From Rhodococcus oxybenzonivorans (GTDB lineage: Bacteria > Actinomycetota > Actinomycetes > Mycobacteriales > Mycobacteriaceae): DNA of 64,000 bases. The stretch covers positions 3,844,001 to 3,908,000 of the forward strand of contig NZ_CP021354.1 in NCBI RefSeq assembly GCF_003130705.1, read 5' to 3'. A model generated the notes under the pieces. The model did not search any database. It was not told where the DNA came from and worked only from the letters and a program-made list of their open reading frames with translations. Positions 1 to 10,549 of this stretch are shown here, piece after piece (positions within the stretch are counted from its first letter, which is position 1; every line of letters starts with the position of its first letter). A program made the translations under genes and the position numbers.

Positions 1-266
1 GGCACGCGGCACCGCTACGAGCTCCAGGGCCCGGAACGTGGCGGTCCAGTCCCAGCTCGTCCTCCTCGAGGACGGGCTAGAAGTGCTGGGCCAGAAGGTC
101 TATGGCGGCATGGTGACCGGGCAACGTTGGGGAAGGGGGCAGTAGCACAGGCACCCTTGGGTGTCCTCGAGGTCCGGGACAGTACGGGCCGCCAGGCCCG
201 TTCCGTTGGGCCACCAGGCGCGGCGTTCACCATTCACTGTCGGCCACTACCGCTACGGTCTCCCCC
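1..266. other. Unresolved left edge of the element
   Basis: No gene here can be called with confidence. A plus-strand frame is open from the window edge to a TAG at 143-145 and could be the 3' end of a gene. A minus-strand reading from a GTG at 237 to a TAG at 100-102 would give 45 residues with four Cys near the end (CLCYC, then QRC). It has no Shine-Dalgarno sequence. Beyond that TAG the minus strand again looks coding in more than one frame (for example WDWTATFRALELV), as would be seen in a gene decayed by a stop and a frameshift. Sequence to the left of the window is needed to decide. Confidence 0.3.
233..266 (+). promoter_or_regulatory. Putative leaderless promoter of the 96-residue gene
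   Basis: A TACGGT -10-like hexamer lies at 254-259, seven bases before the ATG at 267, and a weak TTCACT lies at 233-238. No ribosome binding site precedes the ATG. The geometry fits a transcript that starts at or next to the A of ATG, a common arrangement in Actinobacteria. Confidence 0.4.
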
Positions 267-557
267 ATGGCAAAACATGAGATTGCTCCGGAGGACCTCA
301 ACGCCTCCCACATCGGTCAGTACGTGAAAGTCTCCCTGGTCTACCCGGCGGACGGCGTGGACCGCGCGACTTTCCTCGTTGGCGCTGTGCTGGGCGTGGA
401 GCACAAGGTGTCTGAGGACTTCCCGGACCGCGACGTTCTGACCACCGTCACGGTAGACGTGGCGGTAAACGAGGTCCCCATCGTCCTGCCCAACGGCGGC
501 CCCGTGGAAGTCGGAGACACCCTGGACGAGTTGATGACGAGGACGGAAGCGAAGTAG
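267..557 (+). CDS. Small acidic protein of the element, unknown function
   Basis: This is a 96-residue soluble protein starting MAKHEIAPEDL, with no signal peptide, membrane segment or cysteine. It is rich in Val and Asp, and alternating hydrophobic stretches (VKVSLVYPAD, TVTVDVAVNEVPIVL) suggest a small beta-rich domain. I do not recognise the family. It is the only clear plus-strand gene of the element in view, convergent with the capsid side and apparently read from its own leaderless promoter. Genes oriented against the main operon at this end of such elements are sometimes accessory cargo, but nothing in the sequence shows its role. Codon third positions are GC-rich, as expected of a real gene here. 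Confidence 0.6.
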   Translation: MAKHEIAPEDLNASHIGQYVKVSLVYPADGVDRATFLVGAVLGVEHKVSEDFPDRDVLTTVTVDVAVNEVPIVLPNGGPVEVGDTLDELMTRTEAK

Positions 558-576
558 CCACCGCCCCGAACATAGA

Positions 577-610
577 GAGGCCCCGCTCCGGAGGATTCCG
601 GGCGGGCCTC
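577..610. terminator. Hairpin between convergent small genes
   Basis: GAGGCCC at 577-583 pairs with GGGCCTC at 604-610, and an inner CGGA/TCCG extends the stem. There is no T-run on either side. It lies 20 bases after the stop of the plus-strand gene and just past the stop of the minus-strand 20-codon ORF, so it may end both transcripts. Confidence 0.5.
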
Positions 611-621
611 CTCGTGTCACG

Positions 622-684
622 TCACGTAACGGACTGCCACCATGCCATCAACCAGTAGAACCACTCGTAGCCAGGCATCATCAT
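622..684 (-). CDS. Trp-rich 20-residue small ORF with perfect RBS
   Basis: This ORF encodes 20 residues: three Met codons in a row, then PGYEWFYWLMAWWQSVT and TGA. It has four Trp, two Tyr and one Phe, so it would be an aromatic peptide able to insert in or lie on a membrane. A perfect AGGAGG at 691-696 sits six bases before the first ATG, one of the best ribosome binding sites in the element. It is the last minus-strand reading frame after the capsid gene, beyond the 748-790 hairpin. Function is unknown. A membrane-active peptide (lysis, exclusion or signalling) is only a guess. The SD and the composition together argue against chance, but the ORF is too short to be certain. Confidence 0.5.
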   Translation of the reverse strand: MMMPGYEWFYWLMAWWQSVT

Positions 685-747
685 GGAACGCCTCCTCTGC
701 CTCTCCGGCCTACTTGGTGTAGCGCTCCCGGAGTGACGGCTGTTACA

Positions 748-790
748 CGAGAACGCCCCACCGGAGGCTCAACCCGGTGGGGCGTTCTCG
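748..790. terminator. 17-bp perfect hairpin terminator
   Basis: CGAGAACGCCCCACCGG (748-764) is perfectly complementary to 774-790, with a 9-base loop, and is followed on the plus strand by TTTCCC. It lies 95 bases beyond the capsid stop on the minus strand. It probably separates the capsid operon from the small ORF at 622-684 and may act in both directions. Confidence 0.7.
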
Positions 791-885
791 TTTCCCGCTC
801 CAGGACCGGCACGAGGAGAGCCGGAGGCGGGAGTTGGTCCCACCGCCCTCTCAGAGGTAGGGCCGAGAGGGCGGCGGGGGTCTAT

Positions 886-2076
886 TTACGCGGCGGCCAC
901 CGCCGCCGTGACGATGCCGAGCGGCTGGTAGATGTCGAGCTCCGCGCGGGTCTCGATGCGGGCCCGGAGCTCGTTCTTCTCGAACAAGCCATCCGACTCC
1001 GACCACCGGAGGTCGATAGCCCCATCCATCCGGAGCGCCACCGCCGTCGTGTCCAAGACGATGCCCGTTCCCGCCGCCACGACCGTGGAGGGGACCACCT
1101 GGGTGGACCAGAGACGGCGGGCCGCGCGGTCCACCGGGGAGGCGGTCATCTCCAGTTGGCCGGCGGTGTCGGTCCGGGAGAGCTCGATGGTCTCCCAGTC
1201 CGCCGGATTGAGCACGATGAGTCCCGCGGCGTGGCCCTGGGCCTCGAGCTTGGTGATGGCCTTACGGACCGTGGTGATGGCGTCCGTGGCGAACGTCTGG
1301 ACCTGGGCCCCGGAGACGTTGAGAAGGCCAGTGAAGTTATCCCCGAGACCGTCGCCGTTGATTACCTGGCCCTCAATGCCATGGAGGAGGCCCTGAAACA
1401 TCTCCGTCTCCACAAACTGCTGAACGCTGGCACTGTCACGGAGCCAGTACTCGTGGATTCCCTCCGAGAGGTGGGCCACGATCTTGAGCGCCTCGTCAAT
1501 CTGCACGAGGTTGTAGACCGACGTGGGCTTGGTACCGCCCACCGGGACCACCGCGGCGTTGTCGTCGCGGACGGTCTGCCTGAGGTAGCGGTAGGTGGGA
1601 GTGGAGTTGGGGATGGTGTAGAGCGCGTCCAGGATGGACACGCCAGGGTCCGCCAGGGACTGGACCGCGGCGTCCATCGGGGTCCCGGTGACCACCGCTC
1701 CGGACGGGGCCAGAGCCTTCTGGCTGTCCGGGGAGCCGGTCTGGGTCATCTTCTCCGCCAGCTTGGCGGCAACCTGGGCGGCTCCTGCCTTGCGGGTGAT
1801 GGGCAGACCGCGGCGCTTGGTGCCGTTGCCATTACCGGCGGGACCGCCAATCTCCGCCTCGAGCGCCTTGGCCTGGTCCAGAACGGTCTGGTCTGCCCTG
1901 GCCGTCTTGATGTCGGCTACGGAAGCCCTGGCCTCCTCGATGGCCTCACCGTGGGCCTTGCGCTCGTCCGCGGTGAACGAACGGCCCTCCGCCTTTGCCT
2001 TGGCCTCGATGGCACGGGCCGTTTCGAGCGCCTTACGTCCGGCGGCCTGGAGAGTCTGAATCTTTTTGGTGTTCAT
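886..2076 (-). CDS. HK97-type phage major capsid protein
   Basis: This 396-residue protein builds the icosahedral head shell. Residues 1 to about 75 are charged and helical with Lys/Glu/Ala coiled-coil character (KALETARAIEAKAKAEGRSF), as in the scaffold-like delta domain of HK97 gp5. The rest fits the capsid fold, including the sequence ILDALYTIPNSTPTYRYLRQ, a segment VIVLNPADWETIEL-like around residue 290, and the C-terminal R-E-L-D-I-Y-Q-P-L-G-I-V motif typical of the family. The ATG at 2076 has GGAGT upstream. No prohead protease or portal gene is adjacent. In phiRv1 a protease precedes the capsid gene. Either the delta domain is removed differently, a helper protease is used, or the gene is a relic. 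The reading frame is intact and of normal length. Confidence 0.9.
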   Translation of the reverse strand: MNTKKIQTLQAAGRKALETARAIEAKAKAEGRSFTADERKAHGEAIEEARASVADIKTARADQTVLDQAKALEAEIGGPAGNGNGTKRRGLPITRKAGAAQVAAKLAEKMTQTGSPDSQKALAPSGAVVTGTPMDAAVQSLADPGVSILDALYTIPNSTPTYRYLRQTVRDDNAAVVPVGGTKPTSVYNLVQIDEALKIVAHLSEGIHEYWLRDSASVQQFVETEMFQGLLHGIEGQVINGDGLGDNFTGLLNVSGAQVQTFATDAITTVRKAITKLEAQGHAAGLIVLNPADWETIELSRTDTAGQLEMTASPVDRAARRLWSTQVVPSTVVAAGTGIVLDTTAVALRMDGAIDLRWSESDGLFEKNELRARIETRAELDIYQPLGIVTAAVAAA

Positions 2077-2333
2077 GGGGATTACTCCGTTTCGAGTGGA
2101 TCGAGCTGCATCTACTCAAAGCGGACGGGTTGACTCCGTTTCCGCTGGCCCCGCTCGTGGTGGCGGGGCGGACGGCTGCATCCGGATTGACCGCTGGCCT
2201 TGGGAAGGGCCCACCGCTCCGGACCGCTGGCGCTGGCGTCCCAACACGGACGGTCACCGGAGCGATGGGGGTACTTCCACGGCCGAGAATACATGACCGG
2301 ATGCCGGAATCCATTGTCGGAGAAGGGATCAGA
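2077..2333. other. Intergenic segment upstream of the capsid gene
   Basis: This segment holds a 7-bp stem (GCCCCGC 2148-2154 with GCGGGGC 2163-2169). It also holds a 10-base sequence, ACTCCGTTTC, that occurs twice, at 2084-2093 (covering the capsid ribosome binding site) and at 2133-2142. A 60-codon minus-strand frame (2112-2294) is open but has no ribosome binding site. I expect the capsid promoter here but cannot place it. Confidence 0.4.
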
Positions 2334-2648
2334 CTACCCAGGGACTATCCCCGACTCCCCCGGGCTACTCCGCGGAGCCGGGGCGGACGGGGCCGCCATC
2401 GTGAGGTCCAGCTCCGCCGCCTCCAGAGCCCTCTCCAGGACGGCGCGGGCCTTGTCGGAGCCCAGAAGGGACTCCAGGGTCCCGGCGTATGCCTCCGCCG
2501 CCGCCAGGGCCACCTCCAGGGCCACTCCGTCCCGCTCCGCCGCCTCAAGAGTCTCCACCATGGCCGCGCGGTCCTCCTCGAGGAACGCCAGCCCAACAAG
2601 GGCCACCGCGGCACGGGCGGCGGCGTGGCGTCCATCCGGGGCGTTCAT
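2334..2648 (-). CDS. Small Ala/Glu-rich helical protein, paralogue of its neighbour
   Basis: This is a 104-residue, predicted all-helical protein of unknown function. Its C-terminal half (LESLLGSDKARAVLERALEA then AELDLTMAAPSA) aligns with that of the gene just upstream (LAALHGTDEARRLLDVSLEA then ALLDAAVALPSA), so the two look like a tandem duplication. The start overlaps the upstream stop by four bases (ATGA), which implies translational coupling. It lies between the regulator and the capsid gene, where phiRv1-like elements carry small packaging-related genes. A small-terminase or scaffold role is possible but not shown. Confidence 0.65.
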   Translation of the reverse strand: MNAPDGRHAAARAAVALVGLAFLEEDRAAMVETLEAAERDGVALEVALAAAEAYAGTLESLLGSDKARAVLERALEAAELDLTMAAPSAPAPRSSPGESGIVPG

Positions 2649-2935
2649 CGGTCCGTCTCCGCGGAGGGGAGGGCCACCGCCGCGTCCAGTAGCGCCGCCT
2701 CCAGGCTCACGTCCAGGAGGCGGCGGGCCTCGTCCGTGCCGTGGAGCGCCGCCAGCGCGTCGGAGAGGCTCCTGGCCAGGATGGAGGCCACCGCCACGAG
2801 GGCGGGGCGGTCCAGGCCCTCGAGGGACGCCGCCAGCCGCTCCGCGTCCCCTGCCAGAGCGGCGCGGGCCGCCACGGAGGCCACGAGCGCCGCCTCCGCC
2901 TCGTCCAGGTGGGCCGTGTCGTGTAGTTCGGTCAT
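2645..2935 (-). CDS. Small helical protein, first of a duplicated pair
   Basis: This 96-residue protein starts MTELHDTAHLDEAEAALV. The ATG at 2935 was chosen because AGGAC precedes it closely. ATG codons further upstream (2962 and 3046) have no ribosome binding site. It is Ala/Leu-rich and helical throughout, with no cysteine or membrane segment. It overlaps the next gene by four bases and shares its C-terminal pattern L-x2-L-x-G-x-D-x-AR-x2-L-x3-LEAA. Function is unknown. The pair probably forms a hetero-oligomer or two variants of one oligomeric protein, but this is inference. Confidence 0.6.
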   Translation of the reverse strand: MTELHDTAHLDEAEAALVASVAARAALAGDAERLAASLEGLDRPALVAVASILARSLSDALAALHGTDEARRLLDVSLEAALLDAAVALPSAETDR

Positions 2936-3058
2936 GATGAGGTCCTTCCGTAGTGTTTTCATGGTGCGAACTGGGCGTTTACCTCCGGCCGGCGGCGGGC
3001 CGGATGGAGCCATAGCCCAATATCGTTGAGCAACAGCGGATTTCATCGGCAGGGCAGT

Positions 3059-3166
3059 CTAAGCCTGATTGCTTAATCTGAGCACGCGCGTGCGCAGTTG
3101 CCCGGCCGGTGTCCGCAGCTCGAGGTCGGAGCGATCTGGACACCCCCCAGGGGTCCGCCCGGTCAC
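3059..3166 (-). CDS. Possible 35-residue ORF coupled to the whiB stop
   Basis: A GTG at 3164-3166 overlaps the stop of the WhiB-like gene (GTGA) and opens a 35-codon frame ending in a basic stretch, LRTRVLRLSNQA. There is no separate ribosome binding site and the family is unknown. It is listed only because the overlap is typical of coupled genes. Confidence 0.25.
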   Translation of the reverse strand: MTGRTPGGCPDRSDLELRTPAGQLRTRVLRLSNQA

Positions 3167-3525
3167 GAGTCCCGACGTCGTCGGCGCGTCTGCAACCGGG
3201 ACGGCGGCGTGCCGTTCGGCACGGAACGAATGCCGTGGACACCGCCAGCGGCCACGCCTGTGAACCCGTCCGCCACCACCCGGCAGTCCTCCAGCAGCGG
3301 GCAACCCTTGCAGAGCGCCTCTGCCTCCTGCCACCGCCCCACCGCCTCCCAGACACGCTCACTGGAGTGGAGGCCATCGAACAGGTGGGGAGACCGTGAG
3401 CACGGGGGTGGGACGTCACGAGCAACGAGGAGGGCGGCGGCGGCTGCCTCGTCCCGGCCACGCCTGGTGGTCTCGGACCGGGGCCAGGGTGTCCGGTCCT
3501 TCCAGGGGGACGCGCGGCCCGTCAC
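3163..3525 (-). CDS. WhiB-like iron-sulfur transcription regulator of the element
   Basis: With the GTG start at 3525 this is a 120-residue protein. It carries the exact WhiB cysteine spacing, C42-x29-C72-x2-C75-x5-C81, which binds a 4Fe-4S cluster, followed by GVAAGG where most family members have the GVWGG turn, and then an Arg-rich tail (RRRRR near the C-terminus) suited to DNA binding. From established knowledge, WhiB proteins work with the primary sigma factor and occur in several actinophages, where some act on host or phage promoters. It lies beside the palindromic segment at 3653-3847 and is the obvious candidate regulator of the element. The start is uncertain: the frame stays open to a GTG at 3630, but the only good ribosome binding site drives the 11-codon ORF that overlaps this start. 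Confidence 0.8.
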   Translation of the reverse strand: MTGRASPWKDRTPWPRSETTRRGRDEAAAAALLVARDVPPPCSRSPHLFDGLHSSERVWEAVGRWQEAEALCKGCPLLEDCRVVADGFTGVAAGGVHGIRSVPNGTPPSRLQTRRRRRDS

Positions 3526-3557
3526 CGCGTGGCCGTCCGGATGGTTGGTGTCGTCAT
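3522..3557 (-). CDS. Thr-rich 11-codon leader ORF before the whiB-like gene
   Basis: An ATG at 3557, preceded by AAGGAGAGGACGGAACG, encodes MTTPTIRTATR (five Thr of eleven) and stops at a TGA sharing GTGA with the proposed whiB-like start. The arrangement suggests translational coupling or a leader peptide. It could also mean the true protein is made by a frameshift from this start. No attenuator stem was identified. Confidence 0.4.
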   Translation of the reverse strand: MTTPTIRTATR

Positions 3558-3652
3558 CGTTCCGTCCTCTCCTTGGCTGGGTGGTGGGCGGGTACGCCGC
3601 CCTGGGGGCCGTCGCGGGCCCGTAGACCACCGCCCCAGAGAGCTCCCCGAAG

Positions 3653-3847
3653 TGGGGACAAATTGCCTACTGGGGACCTGGGGACCTGGGGACCGGGGAC
3701 TGGGCTGGAGACAACACACACCGCCCGCGTAACCGAAAACAGCCCTTTACCAGTAAAAACACGTAAAAGGTGGCTGATATTAAGCAAGAGGGCGGCGTGT
3801 GTGTTTTGTCGGGGCGGTCCCCAGGTCCCCAGTTCCCCAGGTCCCCA
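3653..3847. repeat. Nested palindrome with inverted 8-bp iterons, candidate replication origin
   Basis: On the left, TGGGGACC is repeated in tandem at 3671-3678, 3679-3686 and 3687-3694, with a variant at 3694-3701 and a lone TGGGGACA at 3653-3660. On the right, the reverse complement GGTCCCCA occurs at 3816-3823, 3824-3831 and 3840-3847, with variant GTTCCCCA at 3832-3839. Inside these arms a second inverted pair (GACAACACACACCGCCC at 3709-3725, imperfectly matched by 3790-3810) flanks a third (CCCTTTAC 3743-3750, GTAAAAGG 3763-3770). All three layers share a centre near 3758, and the middle is the most AT-rich stretch of the element. It lies just past the 3' end of the primase/helicase gene. 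Iterons flanking an AT-rich core beside a replication gene is the layout of phage-satellite origins such as those of SaPIs. An operator region for the whiB-like gene is the alternative. Confidence 0.65.
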
Positions 3848-3900
3848 GTTCGGAGCGCGCCCCGTGGGAGCGGCCATATACGCCGCCCCCACCCCGCCGG

Positions 3901-6501
3901 TCACGAGCCCGTCTCCCCGACAAGGCGGAGCACTTGTGCGCGCCCCACCTTGTCCTCCTCCACGCTCCCGTCATTGACCAGCTCCAGGAGCATGGACTCG
4001 AACGCATCCCGTCGCGGCCCCGTCTTGAACTTGTCCCGGAGGGGACGCCGCGGCTTCCAGTCCCCGCCCTCCAGGTAGTTGTGGATTTTCTCGTGGGCTT
4101 GCTTCCGGAGGTCCTCCACCGCCTCCCCCGTGTGCTGGGCGGCGGCCCACGCTTGGGCGGCCTGGGCCTTGCCCTTGGCCTCCGCCGCCTTCCGTTCCTG
4201 GTGGCGGAGAACCTTCCGGACCCTGGCCACGGTCTCGTCCGACTTGGCCAGCACGGTCCCGGCCAAGTCCCAGACCTCGTCCGTGACGTCTCCCTCCTGG
4301 CCGATGAGGACGGATAGGATTACGCCCACTTTGAGCTGGAGGAGCGTTCGGTGGCCGGCCAGCTCGTCCTCCTGGCCGTCGTCGGAGTCGATGAGCTCTG
4401 CCAGCCGCTCGTCCGCGTCCGCATCTACCGCCGCCACCGCGGCGGGGCCCACCTCCACGTCCTGAAACTTGCCCTCTGGGATGGGTAGGTAGGGGCGGAG
4501 TCCGGGGCGGTCGTCTCCGCTCTCCTCCGCGGTGTCCCCGTCCGGCGTCGTAGGAGAGTCCGGTATCACCAGCGGGTCCGTACCCGGCCACCGCTTCGCA
4601 ATGAACGAGACGTCCACGCGGGGCGGAAGGGTGCCCACCGCCGCCCGTAACGCCTCCCGGTCCTCCGTGGTGAACCCTGGGTCATTGGTAGGCAGGAACA
4701 CGAACCGTTGAGGCAGACCGCCCCCGTGTTCCCCGAGGAGGCCACCAGCACGGAGCGGCTGGACGCCCACGATGGCTGCCAGGCGGTAGGCCATGGCCGG
4801 GAGCTTCACCGCCTTGGTGGTGTCCGCGTACTGGAATCCCTGGGCCTCCCCGCTCCAGCCCTTCCGGAGAACCGGGGATATGGTGGCCCCCTGGCGACCG
4901 GACACGGACACCAGAGAGTCCACCTCCGGAACGTCCACCAGGAATCTCTCCGTGAGCATGTACGTGGTTGGGTCCAGTGGGCTACGCCGCCGGAGCCCGA
5001 ACGCCTTGACCAGCCCCTCACCGGAGCCCGCCTCCGCGGAGGGAATATCCGGGAGCCCCGCCAGGGCGGCATGGGCGGTCCGTGTGCTGGTCCCTTTGCC
5101 TCTACCTGACCGCGCCACGAGTCCTACGAACAGGTTGAGGGAGGCGCGGTCCCCGGCCAGAGCCGGGATGGTGACGTAGGGCGGGATGGCAGCGGACACG
5201 AGGACCAAAGCCGCCCCGAGAGCCCCCCACGGAGACGCCCTCCGGAGACGCGCGAACGTCCGGATATCCTCAAGCACTGTGGAACTGGACCAGAAAGCCT
5301 CCTCCTCGTCCACGTCCAGGACCGCCTGGCTCACGTCCCACGCCGCCGGGGCCGGTCCGATGATGCCCAGCTCCACCATGACCCGCTCCACGGGCTTGTG
5401 CTCCATGGCGGCGTGGAACTGGAGCTTGGTCCACCGCTTGGACCCGGCCAGCTCCTCCGGAGGGTTGTCGGTCCAGAGCATGAGGGGACCGGAGTCTCCC
5501 TCCAGCTCCACCCGCGGGTTGGTGCATCCCGCCTCGTGTGCGGTGGCACTCTTGTCGGACCCGTGGTCTCCGGGAGCCTTCCAGACCGGGCACTGGCAGC
5601 CACCGTCCCGCATACGCGGAGACGGAGTCCAGCCGTACCAGGACAGAATCTCCGCCCACGGGTGGGCATCGTTCCACGCCGCCACGGTCTCCCCTAGCGT
5701 GTCGTCCCCGGCGGTCCGGCGCTCCGCCCGCTCCTCCGCCGCCTGGACTCTCCGTTCCCGGACGAGCTCGTTCTCCGCCGCCCGGGCGCGGATGAGCTCC
5801 ACCAGCCACGGGCTCTCCGAGAGGCGTTGCACTGGACCGACATTGCGGTAACTTCCCTCCGCGCGGGAGGAGGGCGGGACCAAGATGTACCGCTTCGCCA
5901 TGGAGACCACCGCCCCGCCGGGGAGCTTGAACTCGTCCACCAGCGGGAGGTCTGGGACGTCATTCACGTAGATGAAGTGGCCGCCGTCCTTGTGGACCCA
6001 CCGCCCGTCCGCGTCCTGTTGGCCCGGGGAGGCGGTGGTCATCGGGTAGAGGTCCGGCGGCGTGTCCGTACCGGCCACCGCCAGCTCCCGCACCGCCCGG
6101 ACCTCGTCCGCCGTATCCGCGTCGATATCGGTGATGCCGGACCGCTCCACGTGGAGACCTACGTTGGGCTCCCGGCCACCGGAGTCGGTGATGTAGCGCT
6201 GGTAATAGGACTTGAGGCGGGCCGGGTTGTCGGTGGCGGCCTCACGTCCGGACCCGGACGTGACACTCTCCCAATCGGGGTCCCCGGCCTCCCGGGCGGC
6301 GTCCTGAGCCTTGCGGTCATCGTTCGCCCGCTCTCTGGCGGTCCGGAGGTCCAGCGGAGCCTTAGGGTCACGCCCGGGACGGGTCTCCACGAACACCACG
6401 GACGCGCCGGCCTTGGCGAATACGAGGGCGGCGTCCAGGACCGAGACCCCGCCCATGTCTCGCATGATCGAATCCAGCTCGTTGGCGGCCGTGTTCAGCA
6501 T
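3901..6501 (-). CDS. Primase/helicase-like replication protein
   Basis: This 866-residue protein combines an N-terminal primase-polymerase-type domain (residues about 20-240) with a C-terminal ATPase region (about 400-650). In the first domain, GLHVERSGITDIDADTADEV supplies the acidic metal-binding D-x-D, and DGGHFIYV and the GAVVSMAKRYILVPPS stretch fit bifunctional primase/polymerases. A C-x-C...H...C cluster near residues 290-320 may bind zinc. A P-loop-like GLVARSGRGKGTST lies near residue 465. It has RGKGTS rather than a textbook GKT/S, so activity is less certain. The C-terminal 130 residues are charged and helical. Its start overlaps the preceding gene by seven bases. The candidate origin lies directly downstream. 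Equivalent large primase-like genes occur in phiRv1. It most likely starts replication of the excised element. Confidence 0.8.
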   Translation of the reverse strand: MLNTAANELDSIMRDMGGVSVLDAALVFAKAGASVVFVETRPGRDPKAPLDLRTARERANDDRKAQDAAREAGDPDWESVTSGSGREAATDNPARLKSYYQRYITDSGGREPNVGLHVERSGITDIDADTADEVRAVRELAVAGTDTPPDLYPMTTASPGQQDADGRWVHKDGGHFIYVNDVPDLPLVDEFKLPGGAVVSMAKRYILVPPSSRAEGSYRNVGPVQRLSESPWLVELIRARAAENELVRERRVQAAEERAERRTAGDDTLGETVAAWNDAHPWAEILSWYGWTPSPRMRDGGCQCPVWKAPGDHGSDKSATAHEAGCTNPRVELEGDSGPLMLWTDNPPEELAGSKRWTKLQFHAAMEHKPVERVMVELGIIGPAPAAWDVSQAVLDVDEEEAFWSSSTVLEDIRTFARLRRASPWGALGAALVLVSAAIPPYVTIPALAGDRASLNLFVGLVARSGRGKGTSTRTAHAALAGLPDIPSAEAGSGEGLVKAFGLRRRSPLDPTTYMLTERFLVDVPEVDSLVSVSGRQGATISPVLRKGWSGEAQGFQYADTTKAVKLPAMAYRLAAIVGVQPLRAGGLLGEHGGGLPQRFVFLPTNDPGFTTEDREALRAAVGTLPPRVDVSFIAKRWPGTDPLVIPDSPTTPDGDTAEESGDDRPGLRPYLPIPEGKFQDVEVGPAAVAAVDADADERLAELIDSDDGQEDELAGHRTLLQLKVGVILSVLIGQEGDVTDEVWDLAGTVLAKSDETVARVRKVLRHQERKAAEAKGKAQAAQAWAAAQHTGEAVEDLRKQAHEKIHNYLEGGDWKPRRPLRDKFKTGPRRDAFESMLLELVNDGSVEEDKVGRAQVLRLVGETGS

Positions 6502-6878
6502 GAACGGTCACCGCCGCTCGCGGAGATGGGCAGGTACCAGCCGATGGCCCGCCAGTCTCGTATGCGGAGCCCGGGCTCTATCTGGGTGACGTGGACTCGT
6601 CCGTGGGGGACGGCGTCCGCCGGGAGGTCCAGGAGGCGGCGGAGGAGGTACTCCTCACGCGAGGAGAGCTCCCGGAAATACTCCGTGGCCATCGGGTGGT
6701 TCTCAAACCAGGCACGGTCCGCGTCCGACTCTCCGCGGAGCGCCACGGTGATTGGGCAGGTGTCCGCGTGCTCCGTCTGCCCGCAATCTGGGCAGACCCG
6801 GGTAGACTCTGAAACCGACTCCAACAGGTCATCCATGGAAGCGGCCTCCGCAAGGGGGCCGTTTCTGTTTGTAGTCAT
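6495..6878 (-). CDS. Small zinc-ribbon-like protein of the element
   Basis: This is a 127-residue protein with a short cysteine cluster, C-P-D-C-x10-C, near residues 29-43, likely half of a zinc-binding knuckle, followed by an acidic helical segment (EYFRELSSREEYLLRRLLDL) and a beta-like C-terminal part. The family is unknown to me. It is co-transcribed with the primase gene, overlapping it by seven bases, and follows the 68-residue gene after three bases. A helper of replication or DNA binding is plausible from context only. Confidence 0.65.
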   Translation of the reverse strand: MTTNRNGPLAEAASMDDLLESVSESTRVCPDCGQTEHADTCPITVALRGESDADRAWFENHPMATEYFRELSSREEYLLRRLLDLPADAVPHGRVHVTQIEPGLRIRDWRAIGWYLPISASGGDRSC

Positions 6879-6881
6879 GGT

Positions 6882-7088
6882 TCACGCCCCGCCCCGGAGG
6901 ATGGCCGCCAGCCGGTCTACCTGTTCGGGGGTGAGCGGTGGGGCGTCGGCCAGGATGGCCTCCACCACGTCCTGGATACGGGAGGCCGCCAAGTCACGAC
7001 GAAGGGGCGTCGTATCGGCGGATGGGTCACGCTTGACGGCATTTCCGATATGGCCCGCGATGCTGCGGGACCGGGACGACATAGCCAC
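6882..7088 (-). CDS. 68-residue basic helical protein next to the integrase
   Basis: This small protein starts (M)AMSSRSRSIAGHIGNAVKRD and ends with LTPEQVDRLAAILRGGA. The N-terminal part is basic, the C-terminal part is a helix pair. The GTG at 7088 has AGGAG at a good distance; an ATG six bases later is the alternative. It is the first gene of the replication operon. Short proteins of this type often sit beside integrases in actinobacterial elements, and in phiRv1 the excisionase occupies a similar place, so a recombination directionality factor is possible but unproven. An inverted repeat overlaps its ribosome binding site. Confidence 0.6.
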   Translation of the reverse strand: MAMSSRSRSIAGHIGNAVKRDPSADTTPLRRDLAASRIQDVVEAILADAPPLTPEQVDRLAAILRGGA

Positions 7089-7096
7089 GGGTTGCT

Positions 7097-7120
7097 CCTG
7101 GTGTGCGAGAACACACCAGG
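7097..7120 (-). promoter_or_regulatory. 9-bp inverted repeat covering the RBS of the replication operon
   Basis: CCTGGTGTG (7097-7105) and CACACCAGG (7112-7120) are perfect arms with a 6-base spacer. On the minus strand the second arm runs into AGGAG, the ribosome binding site of the GTG at 7088. It could be an operator or an RNA hairpin that hides the ribosome binding site. The rest of 7121-7312 has smaller palindromes (CACGGGGACCGTG; GCGCGCA...TGCGCG) but no convincing gene. Confidence 0.45.
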
Positions 7121-7312
7121 CACCCGGTCAGAGCTCCCCGTAGGCGGGATTACTGCCGTGGCCCTGGTCTACACGACGCCGCGTTGTCTTGGCTTCCCAG
7201 AAGGGTTGCCGCGGGCCCTACATAACCCGCTGGAGACCCGACGGTACACGGGGACCGTGGAGCGCGCAACAACGGAGGTGCGCGTAATCTATTGCGGCCC
7301 TTAGTGACTGCC

Positions 7313-8734
7313 CTATGACTTCCCTTGAGACCGCTTCCGCTGGAAGTCCACCAGAACCGTCTCCGGGCGGAACGTCCGCGTCCCCCGTCCGGGCGGATGA
7401 ATGGTCACGTCCGCGAGGACGTCAATCACGGCACGCTTGCGCGCGGTGGTGAGGTCCTCCCACGCCGCCGCCACGTCACCGGATGCCACCAGCGGAGCGA
7501 TGACGTCCGCCGCCCCAGCGGCGGCTATCTCCGCCTCCAGCTCCGCCAGCCGGGTCCGGACCTTCTCGTTCGCGGTGCGGAACTGGTCCCGCGTCATGAT
7601 CCCGTAGTCCTCCGCCAGGTCCTCGAGGCGGCGGCGTAGGACGTCCGCCTCCGCGGAGAGGTCCCGTGTGTCCGCTTCCACCTTGGGCGCGAACAGCGCC
7701 AGCGCGTCCGGCTTGGAGAGGCGGCCCACGATGAGCGCCTCCACGAAATCCTCCACGGGGGCGGCCATCCGCTGGAGATGGTGGCCCTCCGAACAGCGGT
7801 ACTGGCGATAGACCCGGCGGGCCCCACCCGCGTGAACAGTGGCTCCGCACACTCCGCAGCGCGCCAAGCCGGTGAGGAGGGCTACCGCTTGACCGGGGCG
7901 GGACTTCCGGCGGCCGGGGCTCGTGAGGATGGCAACCACCGCCCGCCAGGTCTCCTCCGGGACGATGGGCTCCCACACGGCCCGCCCCACCACGAACGCC
8001 GTGGGGTCCTGGCGGTAGCTCACGTGGGTCCCCTCCGGGCGGTGGCGGCGGAGTCCGGCGTTCCGGGCGTTGAGGAGCACGTCCCGGACGGAGGTGGCCC
8101 TCCACGTGGGCATCCCCTGGGGTGTCGTGAGCCCCGCGGCGGTCCAGGCACGTGCCACCGCGGTAAGCGGCTCCCCCGCAAGGACCGCCTCGTATCCCGC
8201 CGCCACCGCCGCGGCCTCGTCCGGCCGGATGGTGATTCCGTCCGGCTCGTAGCCGAACGCCCGCCGCCCTCCGACGTAGCGCCCCTGGGCGGCGGCCTGG
8301 AGTACCGCGGACTTCTGGCGGGCGGACTTACGCTCCATCTCCCCCTGCGCAACGGAGCCCAGAATCCGGACCACGAGGCGGCCTCCGTCCGTGGAGGTGT
8401 CCACACCATCGGAGGCGGTAACGATGGTGACTCCGTGCCGGTCGCACCGCTCGAGGACGCCCTCGAGGTCCACGAGCCGCCGGACGAGCCGGTCCACGTG
8501 GCGCGCCACGATGACGTCCACCTCCCCGCGGTCCACCGCCTCCATCATCTCCTCGAACTGGGGCCGCGGCTTCCGGCTCGTGGCGGAGACGTCGTTATCC
8601 ACGTACTCCCGGACCACCTGGAGCCCACGGGATTCCACGAGTCGGCCGGTGTCCTCCCGTTGGCGTTGGATGCCATACTCCGTCCCGTCCCGGTCCTGGG
8701 ACTGGCGGAAGTAGAGGGCGGCGCGCTGGGTCAT
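7313..8734 (-). CDS. int: Large serine integrase
   Basis: This 473-residue site-specific recombinase joins attP and attB by double-strand cleavage and rotation. The resolvase domain is at the N-terminus, with YFRQSQDR placing the catalytic Ser at residue 12 and an Arg at residue 10; later come DRLVRRLVDLEGV and GEMERKSARQKSA with the linking helix. The recombinase domain follows (RRAFGYEPDG). A zinc ribbon starts with C-G-V-C near residue 290 and ends with a Cys in the sequence RQYRCSEGHH. A coiled coil lies near 345-400 (LRRRLEDLAEDYG, LAELEAEIAAAG). The gene is last in the element and its start is about 30 bases from the comM junction, so its promoter region abuts the attachment site. It should be both integrase and, with a partner, excisionase. 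Confidence 0.95.
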   Translation of the reverse strand: MTQRAALYFRQSQDRDGTEYGIQRQREDTGRLVESRGLQVVREYVDNDVSATSRKPRPQFEEMMEAVDRGEVDVIVARHVDRLVRRLVDLEGVLERCDRHGVTIVTASDGVDTSTDGGRLVVRILGSVAQGEMERKSARQKSAVLQAAAQGRYVGGRRAFGYEPDGITIRPDEAAAVAAGYEAVLAGEPLTAVARAWTAAGLTTPQGMPTWRATSVRDVLLNARNAGLRRHRPEGTHVSYRQDPTAFVVGRAVWEPIVPEETWRAVVAILTSPGRRKSRPGQAVALLTGLARCGVCGATVHAGGARRVYRQYRCSEGHHLQRMAAPVEDFVEALIVGRLSKPDALALFAPKVEADTRDLSAEADVLRRRLEDLAEDYGIMTRDQFRTANEKVRTRLAELEAEIAAAGAADVIAPLVASGDVAAAWEDLTTARKRAVIDVLADVTIHPPGRGTRTFRPETVLVDFQRKRSQGKS

Positions 8735-8746
8735 GTCACGATTCTA
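8735..8746 (-). promoter_or_regulatory. Leaderless -10 element of the integrase
   Basis: On the minus strand TAGAAT (8741-8746) is followed by six bases and the integrase ATG. No ribosome binding site exists between them, so a leaderless transcript is likely. The -35 position would fall at about 8764-8770, inside the attachment site, so excision would change this promoter. Confidence 0.5.
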
Positions 8747-8756
8747 GGCGAGACGT

Positions 8757-8780
8757 CCGCTATATTGACGTCCACGTGAC
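8757..8780. other. Attachment-site junction of the element (attL or attR)
   Basis: ComM homology is clear through ...ALRVTWT and then the frame reads Ser-Ile-stop, which is foreign. The crossover therefore lies near 8764-8772. GGACGTC is present twice on the minus strand here (8767-8773 and 8753-8759). Serine integrases use sites of about 40-50 bp with a 2-bp core, so no long direct repeat is expected. Confidence 0.7.
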
Positions 8781-10193
8781 CCGCAGTGCCCGATCGGCGC
8801 CACGCGCGGTGATCATTCCCTTCTGCAGCGCACGCTCCACCGGTGCGAGTGCGGGCCGGGACAAGCGGAACTTCTGGCGCAGAGCCGGCCCCGGCACCTC
8901 CGCGTTGGTACGCCAACCGTGGTCGTACCAGCGCTCCCCAGCCGCGGCGCGGGCAGCGGCCACCCGCCGGTGGACGTTCTCGGTGCTCTCACCGATCTCA
9001 TCGATGAACGCGCCGGTCGCCACCGCCTGCATCCGCACACGCAGGTCCACACGATCGAGGAGCGGCCCCGACAGTTTCCCCAGATACCGCCTCCTCGCCG
9101 TCGGAGCGCAGATGCAGTCGGCCTCACGGGCCGGGGCACACGGACACGGGTTCGCGGCGAGGATCAACTGGAAACGAGCGGGGTAGCGCGCCACACCGTC
9201 CCGGCGGGCGATCCGCACCTCGCCGTCCTCCAGGGGCGTGCGAAGGGCCTCGAGTACCTTGGTGCCGATTTCGGCGAATTCGTCGAGAAACAGCACGCCC
9301 CGGTGTGCACGACTCACGGCGCCCGGCCTCGCGACGCCACTGCCCCCGCCGACGAGAGCGCTGACCGTAGCCGTGTGGTGTGGCGCGATGAAGGGTGGGA
9401 CGTCGATCAGCGGCCTATCCGGTGGCAGCAGGCCCGCCACCGAGTGAATCGCGGTCACCTCGAGCGACTCGCCTTCGGTCAGCGGTGGCAGTATGCCCGG
9501 AAGCCGCTGTGCGAGCATCGTTTTGCCGACACCGGGTGGACCGGTGAGCATGAGGTGGTGCGCACCCGCCGCAGCAACTTCGATGGCCCAGCGCGCCTCC
9601 GCTTGACCGACAACCTCGCTGAGGTCACCGCGCACAGGCTGAATCAGACGCTCCGTCGGTTCGGGATACTCGAGTTCGTACTCGCCGCGCATCCATGCAA
9701 CAGCGGACCGCAGATCACGCGCGCCCAGGACCTCGATCCCGCTGACGAGTCCGGCCTCGGGCAAGGTCTGCACGGGTACCACGACCGTCGACCATCCCGC
9801 GTTCTTGGCCGCGAGAACCGCAGGGAGCACACCGCGCACCGCACGAAGCCGGCCGTCGAGCGCGAGTTCGCCGAGCAACACCGTCTCACGGAGCCGATCA
9901 CGCTTGACCTGCTTTGCCGCATCGAGCACCGCCGCCACCAGTGCGAGGTCGTATACGGACCCGACTTTCGGCAAGGTCGCCGGCGACAAGGCCAGGATGA
10001 CCTTCGAATCCGGCCACTGCTCGCCCGAATTGGTCACGGCGGCGCGAATTCGGTCGCGCGCCTCCTGTAGCGCCGTGTCCGGCAATCCCACGAGGTGCAC
10101 GGCCGGAAGACCGCGCCCGATGTCCGCCTCGATTTCCACCAGCTGACCGTCCACCCCCGTCACCGCTACCGAATGCGCGCGCCCCAGCGCCAT
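8760..10193 (-). CDS. comM: ComM/YifB-type AAA+ ATPase, 3' end lost to the element
   Basis: This Mg-chelatase-family AAA+ protein is known in naturally competent bacteria as ComM, a branch-migration helicase acting on incoming DNA. The start ATG at 10193 overlaps the yraN stop (TGATG) and gives 477 residues. MALGRAHSVAVTGVDGQLV is the family N-terminus. Walker A GPPGVGKT lies near residue 221, Walker B is GVLFLDEF, and the cysteine knot NPCPC...CIC follows. The family usually runs about 30 residues further, through a helix that starts WTLADLAG. Here the protein ends WT-Ser-Ile at the element junction. The ATPase core is complete, so partial function is possible. In relatives dprA follows comM. 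Here it would lie beyond the element, outside the window. Confidence 0.9.
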   Translation of the reverse strand: MALGRAHSVAVTGVDGQLVEIEADIGRGLPAVHLVGLPDTALQEARDRIRAAVTNSGEQWPDSKVILALSPATLPKVGSVYDLALVAAVLDAAKQVKRDRLRETVLLGELALDGRLRAVRGVLPAVLAAKNAGWSTVVVPVQTLPEAGLVSGIEVLGARDLRSAVAWMRGEYELEYPEPTERLIQPVRGDLSEVVGQAEARWAIEVAAAGAHHLMLTGPPGVGKTMLAQRLPGILPPLTEGESLEVTAIHSVAGLLPPDRPLIDVPPFIAPHHTATVSALVGGGSGVARPGAVSRAHRGVLFLDEFAEIGTKVLEALRTPLEDGEVRIARRDGVARYPARFQLILAANPCPCAPAREADCICAPTARRRYLGKLSGPLLDRVDLRVRMQAVATGAFIDEIGESTENVHRRVAAARAAAGERWYDHGWRTNAEVPGPALRQKFRLSRPALAPVERALQKGMITARGADRALRVTWTSI

Positions 10194-10549
10194 CAAAACG
10201 CGTCCCGGACATGCTCGATCTGTGGTTCCCCGGCACGGTTCACCATGATCGCAACGACATCGAAACGCACCCGGGACCAGTGCCGGCCCGAGTCGCGCAG
10301 CCATTCCACCGCCAGCAATCGGATCCTTCGCTGCTTGGAGAACGTCACCGCCTCGGCCGGGCTACCGAAACCGAGACCGCGGCGTGTCTTCACCTCGACG
10401 AATACGAGCCAGTCAGCCTCTGCTGCAATGAGATCGACCTCCCCGTACCGCGACCGCCAGTTGCGGTCGACGATCTCCATACCCGCATCGGTGAGATACC
10501 GGGCCGCCAGATCTTCCCCATGTGCGCCGAGCGCAAGATTGTGCGCCAT
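10193..10549 (-). CDS. yraN: YraN / UPF0102 endonuclease-like protein
   Basis: This 118-residue protein of the UPF0102 family has a restriction-endonuclease-like fold. The catalytic-type motif is visible as GEVDLIA...FVEVKTRRG (Glu, Asp, E-x-K). Its biochemical role is unsettled; the fold suggests nuclease or Holliday-junction-type activity. It lies directly upstream of comM, overlapping it by one base, an association conserved across Actinobacteria and linked to DNA uptake and processing genes. Length is normal. Confidence 0.9.
   Translation of the reverse strand: MAHNLALGAHGEDLAARYLTDAGMEIVDRNWRSRYGEVDLIAAEADWLVFVEVKTRRGLGFGSPAEAVTFSKQRRIRLLAVEWLRDSGRHWSRVRFDVVAIMVNRAGEPQIEHVRDAF

Follow-up and report, generated by a model that had tools for sequence, protein, structure and literature searches.

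A candidate replication origin of facing iterons behind the Prim-Pol/DUF3987 primase-helicase gene of a satellite-like element in Rhodococcus

The window analysed here is a stretch of 64,000 nucleotides of Rhodococcus oxybenzonivorans (contig NZ_CP021354.1, forward-strand positions 3,844,001 to 3,908,000), and all coordinates refer to it unless a locus is named. It contains the greater part of an integrative element, about 9,019 bp long, which splits the yifB gene and has its ends at about -259 and about 8760, both carrying the common word TGGACG. The site under study is an array of short repeats (iterons) in two facing arms, located 3' of the primase-helicase gene of the element and 5' of a weakly WhiB-like open reading frame (ORF). 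The parts of the site and its two neighbours are:

3163..3630, minus strand: WhiB-like ORF, 155 aa, C-x29-CxxC-x5-C (Pfam Whib E 0.017, below the Pfam cut-off; PHROG 12112 E 7.7e-4)
3653..3694, plus strand: distal iteron arm, TGGGGACA at 3653 and exact TGGGGACC at 3671, 3679 and 3687
3695..3815, no strand: core between the arms, including the AT maximum of the element; presumed to be where unwinding takes place
3710..3728, plus strand: inner inverted repeat, arm 1, with ACACACACCGCCC at 3714-3726
3790..3810, minus strand: inner inverted repeat, arm 2, with GGGCGGCGTGTGT at 3790-3802
3816..3847, minus strand: proximal iteron arm, exact GGTCCCCA at 3816, 3824 and 3840 and GTTCCCCA at 3832
3901..6501, minus strand: primase-helicase, 866 aa, with Prim-Pol, DUF3987/MCM-like AAA+ (about 405-760) and predicted winged helix (about 800-862); presumed initiator reading the iterons

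Four TGGGGACC-type units stand opposite four GGTCCCCA-type units, three being exact on each side, and the array begins, with the proximal arm, 53 bp past the primase-helicase stop codon. The coordinates confirmed what a sequence-only reading of this DNA had described, namely facing units of these two kinds beside the primase-helicase gene and upstream of the WhiB-like ORF. The exact 8-bp period of that reading held for most steps, but the TGGGGACA unit at 3653 lies at a step of 18 bp, out of register with the other distal units. Similarly, the single centre proposed near 3758 was found for the inner repeat ACACACACCGCCC/GGGCGGCGTGTGT (centre 3758), whereas the iteron arms pair in several registers, with centres at 3751, 3755 and 3759, because of their 8-bp period. 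Complementarity of the arms was 79% for 3669-3721/3797-3849, 96% for 3670-3695/3815-3840 and 100% over 18 nt for 3669-3686/3816-3833. Two inner inverted pairs had been suggested. When the core was dinucleotide-shuffled, a coaxial repeat matching ACACACACCGCCC/GGGCGGCGTGTGT in quality turned up 5 times in 2000, and one at any position in the core 44 times in 2000. The innermost pair, AGCCCTTTAC / GTAAAAGGTGGCT, was read by eye; it contains gaps and is weak by itself. The array is indeed centred on the most AT-rich stretch of the element, the maxima within 1-8740 being at 3744-3787 for 40-mers and at 3730-3789 for 60-mers. When centres from 200 to 8600 were scanned, symmetry peaked at 3759 (51/100 pairs, mean 28%). 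In 3.05 Mb of shuffled sequence there was no inverted 7-mer array with at least five copies.

Single-protein searches of genome contigs and viral contigs returned no match; an alignment-based search of genome contigs gave one short relative and a plasmid search one weak match. The doubled iteron TGGGGACCTGGGGACC was present exactly in 1 of 28 genomes of the genus (its own) and in nine viral contigs, and therefore the architecture was compared rather than the word; the 8-bp unit singled out earlier is misleading alone, but the architecture recurs. One viral contig with TGGGGACCTGGGGACC (L046) was set aside as unrelated or convergent, as the portion examined encodes, by our reading, a PolIII-alpha-like protein and a primase was not seen there. 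This phage-like contig carries six TGGGGAC copies at 9373-9539, in opposed arms 128 bp apart.

The primase-helicase protein was matched in 82 of 401 genomes of the host family. We compared 82 loci, consisting of 80 match places, the window itself and L005, which is another element in the window's genome; about eight loci matching in the Prim-Pol part only were retained, and places outside the set include G145, G176, G242, G292, G332, G346 and G091:C3. Each locus was scored by the copies of one 7-mer, counted in both orientations near the stop codon, with a strict threshold of at least 6 and a looser one of at least 5. The thresholds were set after a first look, on the same data that suggested them, and therefore the loci from outside the family, as the cleaner test, weigh most.

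Facing arrays of short, mostly G-rich words (GGGGTAC, GGGGGAC, GGGTGGAC, GGGTGAC, GGTGGCC, TGTGGCA and others) were found 3' of the stop codon in many of the 38 loci that were read, the words differing among elements while the layout holds. The strict score was reached by 35 of 82 stop regions; the controls gave 3/1640 for shuffles and 10/884 for windows taken elsewhere in these loci. The looser score was reached by 52 of 82 stop regions, with 18/1640 and 63/884 in the two controls, respectively. Array position across loci peaks at the stop codon: in tiles along 81 loci (the near-copy L063 of L062 being omitted here and in the covariation and core-motif analyses), score 6 was reached in 35/79 at -300..300 and in 28/79 at 0..600, with a maximum of 4 in tiles clear of -600..600. 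Upstream regions gave 0/73 at score 6 and 3/73 at score 5, and five weak-match loci serving as rough negative controls (L167-L171) gave 0/5 and 1/5. Among the 52 loci with a score of at least 5, steps of 8 or 9 bp made up 107 of 196 short steps, the core was AT-enriched in 47, and the array opened G-rich and closed C-rich in 34, had the opposite orientation in 6 and was mixed in 12. The window has the plain form > > > core < < < <; many relatives instead show > > < core > < <.

Outside the host family, the layout was found again. A class-wide search matched 30 of 394 genomes, with 15 strong places beyond the family, 14 of which were taken as loci (a second place of G551 was left out) and 13 of which were readable (the contig of L164 ends at the gene). 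Nine of these 13 loci reached the strict score (shuffles 2/700) and 11 the looser one (shuffles 9/700), the latter including L165, whose copies are scattered and not array-like. The protein also matched 566 phage records. In the one examined, Gordonia phage Hibiscus, a CGTGGAC array lies just 3' of the annotated DNA primase/polymerase gene, within gene 55, annotated as hypothetical and overlapping gene 54 at the latter's end. Eleven viral contigs matching in the Prim-Pol part only (L051-L061) gave a score of at least 6 in some 600-bp window in seven cases, with copies scattered and mostly inside genes; only in L058 (score 7) does this window reach the stop region.

A motif in the core, C[AT]GGT[AC][AG], was considered and is not claimed, because it had been derived from the first set. 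It occurred in 22 of 48 cores in the family (shuffles 120/1920, flank 2/46), as against 4/13 outside the family, where the flank also gave 4/13. The exact CAGGTCA (16/79 vs 3/76) is likewise not claimed. Cores below 20 or above 180 bp were omitted from this analysis, as were L111 and L122, whose copies are not array-like.

The second element of the host genome (L005, 4980-10900) carries, by our sequence reading, a tyrosine-type integrase, and has separate Prim-Pol and DUF3987 genes with a GGGTGGAC array behind the helicase; the two would be co-resident replicons with different words.

The predicted model of the primase-helicase consists of a Prim-Pol domain, an MCM-like AAA+ domain and a C-terminal winged helix. 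Pfam searches up to E 5 gave DUF3987 and Prim-Pol matches only, and no sequence relative was found among solved structures up to E 1. Foldseek related the model to Cch (5dgk, E 2e-3) and to the pRN1 Prim-Pol domain (1ro0, E 2e-3), and weakly to the primase-helicase of SaPI5, a Staphylococcus aureus pathogenicity island (SaPI; 7ola, E 0.016), and to PriRep1 (7pds, E 0.026-0.054). The AAA+ part aligned best with MCM chains, in a list that leaves room for unlisted folds such as superfamily 3 (SF3) helicases. In passages of PMC5862659, DUF3987 is predicted to be a helicase of mobile-element replication.

Iteron similarity was correlated with C-terminal identity over 46 loci (r 0.44), a set that omits the loci matching in the Prim-Pol part only, except the window's own, and also L111 and L122. 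With the AAA+ core held constant, the partial correlation of C-terminus and word was 0.20 (permutation p 0.002), and the reverse partial was 0.13 (p 0.06). When 371 columns were ranked, residue 822, at the end of helix 818-822, came first and residue 827, in the turn before helix 829-843, came third; winged-helix columns as a set exceeded the remainder (p 0.012). This exploratory result suggests the winged helix as the putative reader of the iterons.

From the sequence, the structural model and analogy taken together, we consider it highly likely that the site is the origin of the satellite-like 9-kb element and is worked by the element's own Prim-Pol/MCM-like helicase. In such an origin, the helicase would bind the TGGGGACC iterons of both arms via its C-terminal winged helix, and the facing orientation of the arms would bring two helicase assemblies onto the AT-rich core, head to head. 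The core would then melt, possibly aided by extrusion of a long hairpin, and the Prim-Pol domain would prime on the exposed strands. Replication would be bidirectional after excision, with firing presumably upon helper induction. The best reading, by analogy, is a self-encoded origin placed, as in SaPIs and the staphylococcal cassette chromosome mec (SCCmec), directly behind the initiator helicase gene. That such an origin is read by the adjacent protein is the economical reading, because of the SaPI, SCCmec and pRN1 precedents together with the DUF3987 helicase prediction. The candidate satellite origin of the sequence-only reading is thus supported in kind: by the layout, which recurs 3' of genes of this family, by the predicted protein architecture and by the same precedents.

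Several results speak against this interpretation and have to be set beside it. In the family, 30 of 82 loci scored below 5 and 47 of 82 below 6, so that either degenerate arrays escape the score or some of the genes are without arrays; L145 and L148 score 3 and 4 despite facing repeats visible by eye. Some high scores arise from scattered copies (L111, L122, L165). The loci are kin, so the counts are not independent, and the closest full-length relatives, P0002-P0004, which are 53-55% identical, come without DNA context, which leaves near sisters of the window's site outside the comparison. The covariation is modest and was drawn from 46 related sequences, and AAA+ residues 588 and 729 ranked second and fourth among the columns. 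Finally, Prim-Pol phages without a DUF3987 match had no such array.

SaPI iterons flank an AT-rich segment, and in the window several short iterons flanking an AT-rich segment are present. According to passages of PMC7581432, which speak of iterons alone, the SaPI Rep origin lies directly downstream of the initiator helicase gene and has multiple short iterons, read by the helicase C-terminal domain, the helicase being bound apparently as two hexamers. The array of the window is likewise directly downstream of a helicase gene, with several short iterons, and both are satellite elements. However, SaPI helicases are related to DUF927 (Cch-like) or Primase_Cterm/D5, whereas here we found DUF3987, an MCM-like fold and a fused Prim-Pol in Actinobacteria; because the helicase family differs (Pfam up to E 5), the element would work like a SaPI replicon but is not filed as one. 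The putative origin of SCCmec Cch/Cch2 is described in the same source as a set of repeats in the intergenic DNA behind the helicase operon, to which the helicase binds by its C-terminal domain, with binding unaffected by deletion of the inverted repeats there. It resembles our site in the repeats behind the helicase gene, and Cch is among the structural matches of the window protein; it differs in having three 5-nt direct iterons, a separate CCPol-MP primase and no two-armed array. Replication of pRN1 requires a hairpin that lies 3' of ORF904, the gene for its Prim-Pol/helicase/winged-helix protein, as stated in passages of PMC4234260. The window protein likewise joins Prim-Pol, helicase and winged helix, with a long-hairpin-forming element just 3'. 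The pRN1 helicase belongs to SF3, from which the present one may differ. pRN1 is, however, an archaeal plasmid, and its authors state that its origin is without iterons, whereas the window has them. RepA of the phage-inducible chromosomal island-like element (PLE) is likewise a satellite's own initiator, bound to repeats in a noncoding region needed for replication; it is, however, a RepA_N protein without predicted primase or helicase activity, and its repeats are of another type (passages of PMC7145576).

The arrays could alternatively be a regulatory operator, at which the primase-helicase or the WhiB-like protein controls how the next gene is transcribed, or sets copy number through handcuffing, with the origin located elsewhere. 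Iteron plasmids also use iterons in copy control. The site is upstream of the WhiB-like ORF, and in 12 of 68 loci an ORF with the signature C-x5-L[FY][DE] ... CxxC-x5-C follows the primase-helicase gene at a distance of up to 2.5 kb (the window, at 3163-3630, and L073, L077, L081, L084, L085, L088, L090, L108, L114, L115 and L117). On the opposite strand, the cysteine pattern gave 3 of 68. The gene order helicase-origin-WhiB therefore recurs. However, score 5 was reached not only by 9 of these 12 loci but also by 43 of the 70 others (14 of these 70 had too little downstream sequence for the scan), so that a dependence of the array on WhiB is not supported, and neither is the coupling of replication with regulation through the whiB-like gene that had been proposed earlier. 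Such an operator would also need less than two opposed arms around an AT-rich core, and we regard it as unlikely.

A role in RNA or as a hairpin only, in the form of a large terminator or attenuator of transcription past the primase-helicase gene, appears very improbable. It would agree with the position immediately past the stop codon and with folding: the minus strand of 3650-3852 forms one long hairpin of -60.4 kcal/mol, far better than 200 shuffles (-32.3, sd 3.3; z -8.5). On the other hand, a terminator/promoter scan found no terminator-like site at the array, Rfam gave no match up to E 1 within 3000-4000, tandem units at 8-9 bp and a 120-bp AT-rich centre would be unnecessary, and the words vary between elements while the layout is constant. 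The promoter scan (3400-4000), which found no promoter, is uninformative, because it covers sigma-70 types only and none is expected in such DNA. Satellites need packaging signals, and repeats can serve as such, but a partition site (centromere-like) or DNA-packaging site (pac/cos-like) for a protein of the helper or the host is scarcely credible, given that the arrays go with a single gene family, that of the Prim-Pol/DUF3987 helicase, in elements both matching and not matching the integrase and capsid of the window, that one occurs in an element with what we read as a tyrosine-type integrase, and that the words change with the helicase C-terminus.

If the site is an origin, it would be of a known kind but a new variant. 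The literature searched, in which papers under subscription, including those that first reported the SaPI origin and are cited in PMC7581432, were mostly not represented, did not describe iteron origins behind DUF3987 genes, the terms 'DUF3987' and 'iteron' never co-occurred in it, and we found in it no mapped origin for actinobacterial satellites, that is, candidate phage-inducible chromosomal islands (PICIs), including phiRv1. The rule of looking immediately 3' of the Prim-Pol/DUF3987 gene points to an origin that can be put to the test in dozens of elements and in one or more named phages; the uncharacterised DUF3987 family would gain an initiator role, and a panel of paired winged helices and iteron words is ready for the study of specificity. 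More tentatively, and with somewhat more doubt than confidence, we propose that the satellites and phages of Actinobacteria use a common modular replicon, in which the origin of a Prim-Pol/MCM-like helicase keeps a fixed place behind the helicase gene, and which may have radiated into many mutually orthogonal versions, each with its own 7-9-bp word read by co-varying residues just before the winged-helix recognition helix (window protein, about 819-831). If so, the recurring pairs would be a natural protein-DNA recognition code, and satellites and phages could cohabit a cell without cross-replication.

The genes of the element all lie on the minus strand and comprise a large serine integrase, a 127-aa ORF, the 866-aa Prim-Pol/DUF3987 protein, the weakly WhiB-like ORF, two short ORFs and a major capsid protein. 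The remaining features are:

886..2076, minus strand: major capsid protein, 396 aa (Phage_capsid E 2.4e-19 in Pfam; PHROG 10)
7313..8734, minus strand: large serine integrase, 473 aa
about 8760-8781: right end of the element
8760..10304, minus strand: yifB (Mg-chelatase-like ATPase), main 5' part, interrupted by the element

The best-named near protein relatives are from Rhodococcus. Because a single phage-like region encodes both its integrase and its major capsid protein, the element fits the working definition of a candidate PICI used in PMC10654092, as far as its passages give it. The candidate mycobacterial PICIs there, including phiRv1, are likewise small integrated elements with these two genes; they differ in that no origin is described in those passages, which also do not demonstrate mobilisation by a helper phage, and in that the present element sits in yifB of a Rhodococcus-like host. 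The two short ORFs, at 2334-2648 and 2645-3046 (104 and 133 aa), have no convincing family match in Pfam and PHROG profile searches; by eye they are alike at the C-terminus, as duplicates would be. ARAGORN called a tRNA-Ala (GGC) at 3202-3280, within the WhiB-like ORF, which is probably spurious because Rfam is empty there up to E 1. Single further GGTCCCCA copies occur at -219 and 473, within the element and far from the array, perhaps by chance.
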